This document shows, in pieces, positions 14,544 to 32,383 of a stretch of DNA of 35,060 bases. Made by a program: the position numbers and the translations under genes. The DNA comes from an uncultured Mycoplasmatota bacterium. GTDB taxonomy: Bacteria > Bacillota_I > Bacilli_A > RF39 > UBA660. Below the pieces are notes generated by a model, which worked only from the letters and a program-made list of their open reading frames with translations, did not search any database and was not told where the DNA came from. Position 1 is the stretch's first letter. Each line of letters begins with the position of its first letter. Location of the stretch: the NCBI GenBank assembly GCA_947642475.1, contig CANRSQ010000008.1:1-35060 (forward strand). Direction: 5' to 3'.

Positions 14544-15569
14544 TTATCTACACTGTCCTATTGTTACATTTGATATGCCACTATTAGTAAACATCCCATT
14601 AGTTGTAGAATTTGTAGTTACCCAATTTGAACCCACATATACTTTTTCAAGGCTCGAAGTTTCTAAAAACATATAACTCATATTAGTTGCATTTTTTGTA
14701 TTAAAATTACATAAATTTAATGTTTTTATATTACTGCAAGATTGAAACATACCCTGCATATTAAGCATATTAACAGTATCAAAATTACTAATATCTAAAT
14801 TAACTAAATTAGTACAAAGATAAAACATGTGATACGCATCCACAACATTGCTTGTATTAAACGAAGACAAATCTAAGTTTATTAACTTATTCGCTCCGGC
14901 AAACATACTATGCATACTTGTAACATTAATTGTATTAAAATTTTTACCAAATATAATAGTAGTTAGTGAAGAATCAAGACTCCTATTTTGCTCACTTGAC
15001 CAAAAATTAAACATAGCAGTCATATTAGTTACATTGCCAACATCAAAACTACTTAAATCTAATTGAATTAAACTAGTACATAGCCGAAACATTTGCTCCA
15101 TATTAACTGCATTACTAGTATCAAAATTACCGTTAAATTCTATTGAAATAATGTTAGTAAAATTAAAGAAAAAATTACTACTATCTTCGTTAGCAACAAC
15201 ACCCCTAGTTGCACCTATAAATAAATCATATTTTCCTGCTCCAGTAGAACTTTCTGTAACATATGCCATAACCCCTCCATCTCTAGCCTCTGATACATCC
15301 CAACTATCAATTGCATTATCCGGAACTTTATTAGTGTCTAAGAAGGTAGCAGTTATAATATTTTCTCTATAAAAGTCTGTATGGAAATCTTCATCGCTTG
15401 AATCTGACCAACTTTTTATTACTCTACTTTTTTCCAATATATTTCCTTTTGCAGTTATGTTTAAATTAGTACTAAAAGCGGCATACCCTACTGCTAAAAT
15501 AAATAATAAGCTTAAACTTGTTATCATTATAAATTTCATTTGTTTATTTTTTCTTTTTCTTCTTCTCAT
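14544..15569 (-). CDS. BspA/DUF285-type leucine-rich repeat surface protein
   Basis: 341 aa. A very basic N-terminus (MRRRKRKNKQ) leads into one membrane segment ending GYAAFSTNLNITAKG. From about residue 155 to the end there are repeats of about 22-25 residues of the form LDLSSFNTSNVxxMxxMFxxCxxL (for example NLDISNFDTVNMLNMQGMF), the DUF285 / BspA-like leucine-rich repeat common in Mycoplasma and gut Firmicutes surface proteins. Such proteins face outward and bind host or cell partners; none can be named here. The N-terminal segment resembles TasA/camelysin-type SipW-dependent signals, where GGT(W/F)A(A/Y)F precedes a LD(L/I) strand. The 5' region shares an element with the 30035-31429 gene. 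Confidence 0.85.
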   Translation of the reverse strand: MRRRKRKNKQMKFIMITSLSLLFILAVGYAAFSTNLNITAKGNILEKSRVIKSWSDSSDEDFHTDFYRENIITATFLDTNKVPDNAIDSWDVSEARDGGVMAYVTESSTGAGKYDLFIGATRGVVANEDSSNFFFNFTNIISIEFNGNFDTSNAVNMEQMFRLCTSLIQLDLSSFDVGNVTNMTAMFNFWSSEQNRSLDSSLTTIIFGKNFNTINVTSMHSMFAGANKLINLDLSSFNTSNVVDAYHMFYLCTNLVNLDISNFDTVNMLNMQGMFQSCSNIKTLNLCNFNTKNATNMSYMFLETSSLEKVYVGSNWVTTNSTTNGMFTNSGISNVTIGQCR

Positions 15570-15578
15570 TCTATTTCA

Positions 15579-15616
15579 CCTTATACACTATATCAAAAAA
15601 AAGGTAATTTTATTGC
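15579..15616 (-). promoter_or_regulatory. Shared 5' element of surface-protein genes, short A-tract form
   Basis: The plus strand reads CCTTATACACTATATC (15579-15594), then eight A, GGTAATTTTATTGC. The same two flanking blocks occur at 31456-31506 upstream of the second surface gene, where 18 A lie between them. It is probably a promoter or leader; on the minus strand the T run would sit between candidate -35 and -10 regions, but the exact hexamers are uncertain. Confidence 0.45.
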
Positions 15617-15644
15617 GAGATAATTTTAAGTTAATTTATACAAT

Positions 15645-15666
15645 AAAAAGAAGCTATTTTAGCTCC
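15645..15666 (-). terminator. Terminator overlapping the prepilin stop codon
   Basis: Minus strand GGAGCTAAAATAGCTTC followed by five T; the stop TAG lies in the stem. It ends the putative spoIIA-like/prepilin operon. Confidence 0.75.
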
Positions 15667-16061
15667 TCACATTTATTAACAGAATATTCATAAACATATT
15701 TTGAACCGCTCCATGATATATTAACAGAGCCATTTAAAACTTCATATCTTTCAGTTTCCACATCACTATTTTTTTTATAATTCGGGTTTATAATATCATC
15801 ATTAGATAAAAGACCATCTTTTTTTAGCTGTTCAACATTAACACAAGTACTAGAACCAACACTTTGACTTGGAAGCTCTAAAGAATGATTAGACATATAA
15901 GTACGTGCCGTATCTTCAATCAATTTAATTTGATTATTATATGATTTTTCCTTAGAATTCCTAATAATAGAATTAACTGTTGGAACAGTTATTAAAGCAA
16001 TTATTCCTAAAACTAAAATTACCATAATTAATTCAATTAAAGTAAAACCTTTATTATTCAT
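15654..16061 (-). CDS. Type IV prepilin-like protein (N-terminal methylation motif)
   Basis: 135 aa from ATG 16061, which has AGGTGA at correct spacing; a GTG at 16070 would overlap that RBS. It begins MNNKGFTLIELIMVILVLG, a textbook prepilin peptidase site (cleavage after Gly, Glu5 of the mature form) followed by the hydrophobic alpha-1 helix. Two Cys (near residue 77 and close to the C-terminus, VNKCEELK) could form the usual pilin disulphide loop. Pilin assembly genes (ATPase, PilC, prepilin peptidase) are not in the window. It begins 26 nt after the sigF-like stop with no terminator visible, so it may be read from that operon. Confidence 0.85.
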   Translation of the reverse strand: MNNKGFTLIELIMVILVLGIIALITVPTVNSIIRNSKEKSYNNQIKLIEDTARTYMSNHSLELPSQSVGSSTCVNVEQLKKDGLLSNDDIINPNYKKNSDVETERYEVLNGSVNISWSGSKYVYEYSVNKCEELK

Positions 16062-16087
16062 ACACTTCACCTATTTTTAATTATAAT

Positions 16088-16750
16088 TTAATTATGTGTA
16101 AAAGTCAATTCACTTCGAAGTTTAGTAAGTACCTTCTTCTCTCTTCTAGAAACATCAACTTGACTAAGTCCAATCGTTCTAGCGACCTCACTTTGTGTCA
16201 TATCTTCATAATATCTATTAATCATAATAGATCTTTCAGGTTCTCCTAAATTTTCAAGTTCAGTTTTCAAAAATATCAAATCATTAATATCCACATCAGG
16301 TCTACTTATAATTTCATGAAGCATCATATTAGTATCACCAACATTGCTATCAATACTTTTTAAACTAACCTTACTATTTAAAGCCTCCACCACATAATAT
16401 TCAGGAATTTCTAAATAATCGCTTAATTCTAAAACACTAGGTTCATGCATAAGCTTTTGTGACAATAAAGCTCTAGCTTTTTCTATTTTATTACTTAAAC
16501 TATTAATATCTCTACTAATTTTTATACTTTTATCTTCTCTCACAACTTTCTTCATTTCTCCTAAAATATAAGAATAAGCATAAGATGTAAATTTTACACC
16601 CTTAGACTCATCATACCTGTTATAAGCCTCAATCATGCCCTTGCACCCAGCTTGATATAAATCATCTTTATCCTGATAATAAGGAAAATAACTAGAAAGT
16701 TTGTAAATCAAATTTTCATTTTCTATAATTATTGCTGCAATATCTTCCAT
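16088..16750 (-). CDS. sigF: Forespore-type RNA polymerase sigma factor (SigF/SigG family)
   Basis: 220 aa. Region 2 is DDLYQAGCKGMIEAYNRYD...VKFTSYAYSYILGEMKKVVRED, aligned with the EDLFQIGC...KFSTYAVPMIIGEI block of SigF/SigG. IKISRDINSLSNKIEKA matches the VSRSLRD(I/E) segment, and region 4 helix-turn-helix is MTQSEVARTIGLSQVDVSRREKKV. B. subtilis SigF drives the first forespore transcription programme and is held by SpoIIAB. Here a SpoIIAA-like gene lies 8 nt upstream, which favours SigF, but spoIIAB is absent. SigG is the alternative identity. Strong RBS ATAGGAGG. Confidence 0.85.
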   Translation of the reverse strand: MEDIAAIIIENENLIYKLSSYFPYYQDKDDLYQAGCKGMIEAYNRYDESKGVKFTSYAYSYILGEMKKVVREDKSIKISRDINSLSNKIEKARALLSQKLMHEPSVLELSDYLEIPEYYVVEALNSKVSLKSIDSNVGDTNMMLHEIISRPDVDINDLIFLKTELENLGEPERSIMINRYYEDMTQSEVARTIGLSQVDVSRREKKVLTKLRSELTFTHN

Positions 16751-30034: not shown

Positions 30035-31429
30035 TTATGAAACAATTGTATATGGATTTATAGCTGTTCCTTCTCCATCTAAGCTAATATCCGGTATTAG
30101 ATAAAGTACTGGCTGAATCACATCTGAATACGCTGCACCATTACCAGAAAGATAACCAGCTGAGTTCATAATCCAAACACTACCACCTGTCATTGGTGAC
30201 ATAGTCCACGAATCTACGCCACTATACATATAATTAGTCTTTTTACATGTTTCTACGTTATTTTGAAGCAATGCCTTAGTTCCACATTTTTCCATGTTTG
30301 AATTTGCTCTTACGTAATCACTTACATTTACTAATCCTATATTTCCTCTCCACTTATATGCCTTTTCTTGAGCTACATCAGTTTCTAATGTTTGTCCACT
30401 TGTAGTTCCTAACAAACCAACATTCCACAAATGATTATCTATTTGGGATTTAACCTCATCATCTAATGTTCCGTAATATGTTCTATTTAGATAGGAATTA
30501 ATATCTGATTCAGATTTAGGCAAGTCATAAACTTCTCCATTTATTTGTATTGGCATTGTTGTTACATTTTCTAAGTTATTATTTAACATTGTTGTACTGC
30601 TTCCCCATACATTACAGCCAAATGTTTTACTAGTACAATAAGATGCGCTTGCAGTTGCTGCTCTTCTACCATTAGAATCCCAAACTTGCTTTACAGTCGC
30701 GTGTCTCTTAATTTTTAATGTTCCATCTGATTCCACAGAGATTATTCTCCATCTTTCATTATTAAAGGTTATATAGTTATCTGGATTAGAACCTCTATAA
30801 ATATAACGTCCGGCTTCTGTTGTATCTTCATATAAGCCATCGCCGGTTGTTACTATGTTTTCTGTTAATTGTTCCGAAGCTGTTGGTCCTTCTGGTACGG
30901 CTATTCCTTCATTATTAATATTTGATTGACTATATTCTAAGGTTACGGTTAAGGTTGATGACATATTATTCGGATCTACTGATACTCCGTCTAAGTATTC
31001 TACTTTTAACGTTAATACCGCACTTTCTCCAACTTTTAGTTTTGTGCCTTCTGTTAATCCTGATGTTGTAAATTTAATTGCAGGATTATTTGAGTCTGTT
31101 AGATTTATTTTATCTAGCTTGGCATCTATTGTTCCATTATTTGTTACTGTTATATCATATTCTATTGAATCTTTTGGTTCTTCTAAATTTACTTCCATAC
31201 TAGCTGTTAAGGCTTCAAATGTTGGTTCTTTGGCATTTGTAGCTCCCCCAACAATATTTTTACTTACTACATTGGTTATTCTTACATCCCAATTTGAACT
31301 TATTCCAGATGTTCCTTTAATATTTAGTACACTATTAAAGACTGCATAGCCTACTGTCATTAGAAGTATTACTCCTAATAGTGATCCTATTATTATATTA
31401 TTTTTCTTTTTCTGATTATAGCTTCGCAT
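30035..31429 (-). CDS. Membrane-anchored surface protein with GYAVF-type N-terminal segment
   Basis: 464 aa. A basic start (MRSYNQKKKNN) is followed by one membrane segment, IIIGSLLGVILLMTVGYAVF, and NSVLNIKGTSG, the same plan as the 14544-15569 protein. Residues 45-165 look like an Ig-like beta-sandwich (IEYDITVTNNGTIDAKLDKI; LTVTLEYSQSN). The C-terminal half from about 205 (GRYIYRGSNPDNYITFNNER onward) ends SWTMSPMTGG...QPVLYLIPDISL, a DUF6273-like layout found in pilin-like surface proteins of gut Firmicutes. Several Cys may form disulphides. It interrupts the sigH-secE order of B. subtilis, so it is an insertion in a core locus. Confidence 0.75.
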   Translation of the reverse strand: MRSYNQKKKNNIIIGSLLGVILLMTVGYAVFNSVLNIKGTSGISSNWDVRITNVVSKNIVGGATNAKEPTFEALTASMEVNLEEPKDSIEYDITVTNNGTIDAKLDKINLTDSNNPAIKFTTSGLTEGTKLKVGESAVLTLKVEYLDGVSVDPNNMSSTLTVTLEYSQSNINNEGIAVPEGPTASEQLTENIVTTGDGLYEDTTEAGRYIYRGSNPDNYITFNNERWRIISVESDGTLKIKRHATVKQVWDSNGRRAATASASYCTSKTFGCNVWGSSTTMLNNNLENVTTMPIQINGEVYDLPKSESDINSYLNRTYYGTLDDEVKSQIDNHLWNVGLLGTTSGQTLETDVAQEKAYKWRGNIGLVNVSDYVRANSNMEKCGTKALLQNNVETCKKTNYMYSGVDSWTMSPMTGGSVWIMNSAGYLSGNGAAYSDVIQPVLYLIPDISLDGEGTAINPYTIVS

Positions 31430-31455
31430 GTATTTTTTTCACTTCCTCTTTTCTA

Positions 31456-31506
31456 CCATATACATCTTATCAAAAAAAAAAAAAAAAAACAAGGTAATAT
31501 TTTTGC
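31456..31506 (-). promoter_or_regulatory. Shared 5' element of surface-protein genes with an 18-A homopolymer
   Basis: The plus strand reads CCATATACATCTTATC (31456-31471), then 18 A (31472-31489), C, and AAGGTAATATTTTTGC. The flanking blocks match 12 of 16 and 14 of 16 positions at 15579-15616. On the minus strand the T run lies between ATTACCTTG and GATAAGATG (TAAGAT is a possible -10). Confidence 0.55.
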
Positions 31507-31520
31507 TAGATATACCCTAC

Positions 31521-31543
31521 AAAAAAAGAACTATAAAAGTTCT
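31521..31543 (-). terminator. Terminator of the rbgA-sigH operon
   Basis: Minus strand AGAACTTTTATAGTTCT followed by seven T, adjoining the stop of the 66-aa gene. Confidence 0.85.
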
Positions 31544-31759: not shown

Positions 31760-32383
31760 TTAACTATTTTTATTATTTTCTACATAATCCTTAACTTTAC
31801 TTCTCATTCTTTGAATCGCATTATCTACTCTTTTAGGATCATCTACTCCTAAAACTTCAGCAATTTCTCTATATGTAAATCCACTTTTTCTTAAATCAAA
31901 AACTTGTTCCTCAAAGGGTGTCATTTCCTGTTTTAAATTATCGACCAAAATATTTACATTTTCAAAATCAAGTAAAACCGTTTCTGGATCACTGCTTTTA
32001 TCATAAACAAATCTTTCAATACTGTCAAGAGTATCTTCATTATAAGTAGCCTCTATCGATATCGAATTATTAAGAACACTGTGTTTTTTTCTATTCGCAT
32101 TTACCACAGATGTAATAACGCTATGTTCAATACATGCCCTCGCATAAGTAAAAAACATAGTATCCTTATGCTCATTATAAGTACTTATAGCCTTACTAAA
32201 ACCAATCATACCCTCTTGAACTAAATCATTAAAATCCATACCACTATTTTTATTTTCATCATATACTCTTTTAGAAATATTTCGAATAAGTGGCATATAC
32301 TTACCAAATAAAACATCAGTTATTTCTTCGTTTTCTGCAACTTTACTAACTAATTCATAATCATTTAACTTTCTATAATCCAT
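31760..32383 (-). CDS. sigH: RNA polymerase sigma factor SigH (Spo0H)
   Basis: 207 aa, similar in length to B. subtilis SigH (218). Region 2 reads MDFNDLVQEGMIGFSKAISTYNEHKDTMFFTYA (DLIQEGMIGLYKSIRDF in B. subtilis); ACIEHSVITSVVNANRKKH aligns with CITRQIITAIKTATRQKH; region 4 has YREIAEVLGVDDPKRVDNAI then QRMRSKV. SigH drives transition-state, early sporulation and competence genes. Gene order rlmB-sigH is conserved; yacP is missing between them, and the start overlaps the rlmB stop (TAATG). Four sigma-H-like promoters lie elsewhere in the window. Confidence 0.93.
   Translation of the reverse strand: MDYRKLNDYELVSKVAENEEITDVLFGKYMPLIRNISKRVYDENKNSGMDFNDLVQEGMIGFSKAISTYNEHKDTMFFTYARACIEHSVITSVVNANRKKHSVLNNSISIEATYNEDTLDSIERFVYDKSSDPETVLLDFENVNILVDNLKQEMTPFEEQVFDLRKSGFTYREIAEVLGVDDPKRVDNAIQRMRSKVKDYVENNKNS

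Follow-up and report, generated by a model that had tools for sequence, protein, structure and literature searches.

The analysed window is a stretch of 35,060 nucleotides on contig CANRSQ010000008.1 of an uncultured Mycoplasmatota bacterium of the RF39 lineage. It carries two genes for putative surface proteins, and upstream of each is a copy of the same promoter-like element. The features of the two loci are as follows.

30035-31429, minus strand: gene for a 464-aa surface protein with a basic N-terminus, a helix at residues 4-31 that includes VGYAVF, an Ig-like beta-sandwich at 49-168 and a C-terminal DUF6273-like domain
31440-31449, minus strand: predicted ribosome-binding site AGAGGAAGTG, assigned from the sequence
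31464-31469, minus strand: predicted -10 hexamer TAAGAT (TATAGT or TATGAT in paralogues)
31470-31486, minus strand: spacer of T15 plus GA, 17 bp
31472-31489, minus strand: homopolymer tract T18 (A18 on the plus strand), read directly
31487-31492, minus strand: predicted -35 hexamer TTGTTT, formed by the TTG of a conserved CCTTG and the first three T of the tract
31493-31512, minus strand: conserved upstream block TATCTAGCAAAAATATTACC, in which ATCT, A.AA and ATTACC hardly vary among 30 copies
31521-31543, minus strand: hairpin-like AGAACT-TTTAT-AGTTCT followed by a T run, read from the sequence
14544-15569, minus strand: gene for a 341-aa surface protein with a leader as in the 464-aa protein and DUF285/PARCEL repeats (E 1.9e-42; TIGR02167 E 2.2e-31)
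15587-15622, minus strand: second copy of the element, with T8, the G of CCTTG lost and the -10 TATAGT at 15587-15592

On the coding (minus) strand the first locus reads in full TATCTAGCAAAAATATTACC-TTG-T18-GATAAGATGTATATGGTAG, then AGAGGAAGTG, and then the ATG of the 464-aa protein. Its core, TTACC-TTG-T18-GATAAGATGTATA, spans about 31459-31497. A sequence-only reading of this DNA had placed a run of 18 A at 31472-31489 and one of 8 A before the other surface gene (within 15579-15616), and both runs are confirmed by direct reading, the second at 15595-15602. The longest other A/T run in the window has 8 bases. The T18 homopolymer is located between recognisable -35 and -10 hexamers (TTGTTT / T15GA / TAAGAT), and with n = 18 it leaves exactly 17 bp between them when the element is read as a sigma-A promoter. 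For this count, the -35 was taken as the TTG of CCTTG plus the next three T, and the -10 as TAWRRT. The hexamer TTGTTT agrees with the consensus at just three of six positions, and its TTG is kept in 27 of 30 copies of the T-tract class. The upstream block is possibly an UP element or a regulator site. A universal operator dyad GGTA...TACC was rejected, as the arm is present in only 14 of the 30 copies.

The hairpin-like sequence farther upstream is, from its sequence, likely to terminate the preceding gene. It falls under the G+C threshold of a terminator scan of the sequence, which did not list it. Sigma-factor genes lie shortly upstream of both surface genes, one SigH-like (31760-32383) and the other SigF/G-like (16088-16750), and both are sporulation-type factors in a genome of about 1.1 Mb. 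A prepilin-like protein (N_methyl, E 2.6e-7) is encoded at 15654-16070, between the SigF/G-like gene and the DUF285 surface gene.

At the second locus the coding strand reads TTACC-T8-GATATAGTGTATA, or in a longer view TATCTCGCAATAAAATTACC-T8-GATATAGTGTATAAGGTG. The same blocks had been said to flank both runs at spacings that differ by about 13 nt. The distance from TTACC to GATA is indeed 21 versus 8 nt and the blocks are found at both loci, but the G of CCTTG is also missing from the T8 copy, and thus the two loci differ by more than tract length. This copy is predicted from its sequence to be inactive or locked. A decayed, probably locked copy is a better reading of the 8-A locus than the other state of a switch. 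TTGATA-N17-TAGAAT was discarded as a promoter for this gene, since its -10 would fall beyond the ribosome-binding site and share bases with the start codon.

The sequence-only reading also held that the gene after A18 encodes a surface protein. It encodes a membrane protein of a family defined by its leader, and the leader helix and the domains behind it point to surface exposure. The predicted model comprises the helix (4-31), the beta-sandwich (49-168) and a mixed C-terminal domain, with a mean pLDDT of 78.5 and low values for the helix itself. A structure search with this model gave weak, partial PDB matches only and no convincing relative. In the family leader, a basic N-terminus is followed by a hydrophobic helix that ends in VGYAAF-x3-LNI-x2-(K)G, and the VGYA-A/V-F leader carries no cysteine lipobox. 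Behind it are either Ig-like regions and DUF6273-like domains or DUF285/PARCEL repeats. A leader search identified 25 loci in this genome and 3-55 per genome in 40 genomes of the genus. Among the 25, 16 have a homopolymer promoter, seven have none and two start at a contig end. Conversely, a leader-family gene follows all 15 element copies for which downstream DNA is assembled.

The element has the consensus TATCT-N4-AWAAWATTACCTTG-T(n)-GA-TAWRRT-GTATA and occurs in 19 tract-bearing copies in the fragmented genome (1.10 Mb, 73 contigs). A genome search with 15 A gave 64 overlapping matches that merge into 15 runs of 16-21 bases. Each of the 15 A/T runs of at least 15 bases in the genome belongs to the T(n) element, versus 0.7 runs expected genome-wide from a first-order Markov model built on the window, so that the A18 run lies well outside what chance would give. 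Four short or interrupted copies complete the 19, namely T8 (C8, 15.6 kb), T9 (C17), T7-GTGC-T7 (C26) and T6-C-T12 (C52). A stringent search with the downstream-side motif T7-GATAWDRT-TATA yielded 17 genome matches, and the reversed control had none. Across 30 copies taken from the genome and its relatives, the upstream block (ATCT-N4-A-W-AA-W-ATTACC) is almost constant. Copies with T8 or T9 (two in this genome, and single ones in G049 and G040) resemble tracts that have contracted and become frozen, and no length between 10 and 15 was seen among the element copies. The difference between 18 and 8 bases amounts to one helical turn.

The tract length might be an assembly artefact, or long homopolymers might simply be neutral in the intergenic DNA of an AT-rich genome, and a fragmented draft with many copies at contig ends would fit such an explanation. 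However, we regard it as most improbable, because all long runs fall within one conserved element before one gene family, because the T(n) element recurs in the separate assemblies G040 and G050, and because the poly-G tracts of AT-rich genomes described below sit exactly before TATAAT.

The long tracts of the genome (n = 16-21) correspond to spacers of 15-20 bp, with assembled lengths that are possibly wrong by a base or more at any one locus. Tract length is unequal in 21 of 25 within-genome promoter pairs whose 45 flanking bases show two differences or fewer; these pairs share members and hence are non-independent. T17/T21 and G12/G17 are examples in which the flanks are identical. Tract length varies faster than the flanks in this comparison between paralogues, and the scatter is the closest available stand-in for polymorphism in a population. 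Interrupted tracts hold the total length at 18 (C26; C32 of G050) or 19 (C52), as expected if the promoter requires a certain spacer length rather than a run of T. Such tracts should be far more stable than pure ones.

When truncated copies are counted too, a contig end lies within 150 bp of 12 of the 25 copies of the element, versus 0.5 expected, and the overlap of about 54 bases between contigs C31 and C34 ends precisely at the tract. These breaks could reflect branching at mixed tract lengths or, equally, repeats or poor sequencing of homopolymers. At one locus of G050 (C12:5873-6410), runs of T22, A12, A31 and T30 are crowded within about 130 bp before a leader-family gene. This low-complexity promoter region represents either runaway expansion or an assembly artefact.

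The block and T run might instead be an intrinsic terminator of the preceding gene, with the T run as the U tract, and in 14 of 30 copies a GGTA arm could pair with the ATTACC that precedes the run. However, hairpin prediction gave no structure or weak ones (0 to -4.2 kcal/mol), and in four of six copies, that of the window among them, the fold was no better than in shuffled sequences. In addition, several copies have their own terminator-like hairpin directly upstream, the position of the element is tied to the start of the downstream gene, and a U tract is missing from the poly-G version. The weakness or absence of the hairpins led us to reject the terminator reading, which retains very little probability.

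Poly-G versions of the promoter are present in this genome and its relatives. A leader-family gene on contig C5 is preceded by TTGCCT-TTTA-G17-TATAAT, and two further G-tract promoters are found at contig ends. Within the genus, G9-TATAAT occurs at 88 sites in 11 of 44 genomes, this one included, and across the order at 344 sites (the sum of the tabulated counts) in 52 of 385 genomes and 20 genera, with no reversed matches in either set. The largest number, 74 sites, was found in G403, a genome of about 1.3 Mb from another genus of the family. A TTG hexamer or near match, with CTTG/TTG marking the -35, is recognisable in 73 of 74 distinct poly-G promoters, with spacers of 13-24 bp. TTGACA is matched at five or six of six positions in 61 of the 73, versus about 8% of shuffled flanks. 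The spacers are mostly 16-22 bp long with a mode of 19, and because they cluster at 18-20, above the optimum, many of these promoters would be weak or OFF. Most G-tract promoters within the genus precede leader-family genes. At the ten loci examined outside the genus the products are mixed, with secreted or membrane proteins in the majority, and chance may account for a few of these loci (one, L305, has no -35).

These poly-G promoters also bear on a structural explanation, in which the T tract is a fixed promoter part, such as a bent A-tract, an UP-like element or a sigma-specific spacer run, and does not switch. Some ECF-sigma promoters have spacer runs, and the two sigma-factor genes just upstream of the surface genes, the conserved, AT-rich upstream block and the clustering of T tracts at 16-21 are all consistent with a structural role. 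However, relatives and, at one locus, this genome use the structurally opposite poly-G in the same gene family, with sigma-A-like TTGACA/TATAAT hexamers. Moreover, paralogues with near-identical flanks have tracts of unequal length, and uninterrupted runs of 16-21 bases are more than a structural role requires. Thus, we consider this explanation improbable, although somewhat less so than an artefact or a terminator.

Two chemically different homopolymers occupy one promoter position in one gene family, and this is the strongest argument that what matters is the trait they share, unstable length. Slipped-strand phase variation is the best explanation for these two unrelated spacer homopolymers. 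The earlier proposal that a homopolymer between -35 and -10 acts as an ON/OFF switch for a surface gene is supported by the number of copies and their placement before one surface-protein family. It is further backed by the 17-bp spacer at n = 18, the length scatter among paralogues, the constant total of interrupted tracts and the poly-G version. It is therefore highly probable, in our judgement, that a sigma-A-type promoter has the tract as its spacer, and that slippage-driven changes in its length switch the surface gene stochastically, as at about 20 loci in all.

The T18 tract would form the spacer of the promoter of the surface-protein gene, and DNA polymerase slippage would add or remove T residues (or G residues in the sister promoters), thereby shifting the distance between -35 and -10 about the 17-bp optimum. 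Each gene would then flip stochastically between stronger and weaker or OFF expression. The gain or loss of a base should thus randomly raise or lower the level of each surface protein, much as happens in mycoplasmas and Neisseria. With about 20 loci, each with its own tract, a population would be expected to show many combinations of surface proteins, and the benefit might be bet-hedging against immunity or phage or among niches. Slippage within a lineage, its effect on transcription and its benefit are what we infer from these patterns. With n = 18 and a spacer of 17, the copy with the long tract in the window is predicted from its sequence to be ON or near ON.

MutS lowers slippage rates, and this genome encodes a MutS_I domain, as do 42 of the 44 genomes from its genus, such that missing mismatch repair was ruled out as the cause of the tracts and switching would be slower than in mycoplasmas that have no mismatch repair. 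RF39 genomes have been published as having MutS (PMC7301438). One genome, G013 (92% complete), has 29 G-tract promoters and no MutS_I domain was found in it, and thus it is possibly a mutator background.

The evidence supports a multi-locus promoter-spacer contingency system for surface proteins that comes in two flavours, T or G, and its mechanistic type is already known from the vlp genes of Mycoplasma hyorhinis and porA of Neisseria meningitidis. Like vlp, it involves a multigene surface-protein family with a homopolymer in the promoter region of each gene. Insertions and deletions in the vlp tracts set ON/OFF transcription, whereas here switching is predicted. The vlp genes belong to a Mycoplasma and encode lipoproteins whose repeats vary in size, whereas the proteins described here have an N-terminal VGYAAF leader helix, belong to a different, uncultured lineage that keeps MutS, and are preceded by T or G tracts at up to tens of loci per genome. 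In N. meningitidis, promoter homopolymer length reportedly sets the expression of porA and opc, for porA explicitly through -10/-35 spacing (refs 24 and 32 in PMC5084427). These are single loci in a Gram-negative pathogen, whereas here many loci of one family share the layout.

In the Mycoplasma mycoides cluster, some PARCEL (DUF285) surface proteins have homopolymeric or dinucleotide tracts in the 5' flank (PMC2996958). The protein encoded at 14544-15569 has the PARCEL repeat and the same kind of 5' element, but with a tract of only T8 and without the G of the -35. N. meningitidis nadA, which combines a promoter-region repeat tract with regulator binding sites and acts through the spacing of NadR operators (PMC2791445), offers a model for the conserved upstream block as a candidate regulator site. 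In Bifidobacterium breve, a gut commensal, slippage in the G-tracts of pilus genes switches surface structures and has been measured by deep sequencing (PMC9187656). That switch is an intragenic frameshift, whereas the one proposed here changes promoter spacing.

Literature searches, both for RF39 with phase variation and broader, found no report of phase variation for this lineage. If the interpretation is correct, this would be, as far as we found, the first such system described in an uncultured small-genome Bacilli lineage, and it would extend mycoplasma-like combinatorial surface switching to relatives that retain mismatch repair. Tract length alone would then predict which surface genes are ON in a sample, for which existing metagenome reads would suffice as a test. 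Tract switching may also account for the draft-genome breaks at these loci.

Homopolymer promoters do not extend to the whole family. About a third of the leader-family genes in this genome and most of those in several congeners have no tract, and in G006, G007, G021 and G042 the family members read had ordinary-looking promoters instead. The absence of tracts before these genes in the four sampled congeners implies that the switch has been gained or lost on short time scales. Several upstream regions among these loci (L162-L201) carry repeated motifs and apparent divergently oriented genes, which suggests that they are under repressor control instead of slippage.

A broader and decidedly tentative proposal is that a large contingency system operates across an order of uncultured Bacilli with small genomes, with tens of envelope genes per ~1-Mb genome (up to the 74 G-tract promoters of G403) behind interchangeable T- or G-tract cassettes. 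The upstream block of the T class might then bind a regulator and provide a common signal that gates the genes set by slippage, and block copies joined to unrelated shared sequence might hint at cassette shuffling or targeting by mobile DNA.

Two such copies of the upstream block (L307 and L309, at C6:1-75 and C32:10422-10495 of G000) have no TTG-T(n) after them. Both continue into an identical sequence of ~56 nt, TAGAACTGACTCGAAGAAAATCTACACG...TATATG, that reaches the contig end and was not found in other loci or in viral contigs. This shared sequence is possibly the end of a mobile element or a rearranged cassette.
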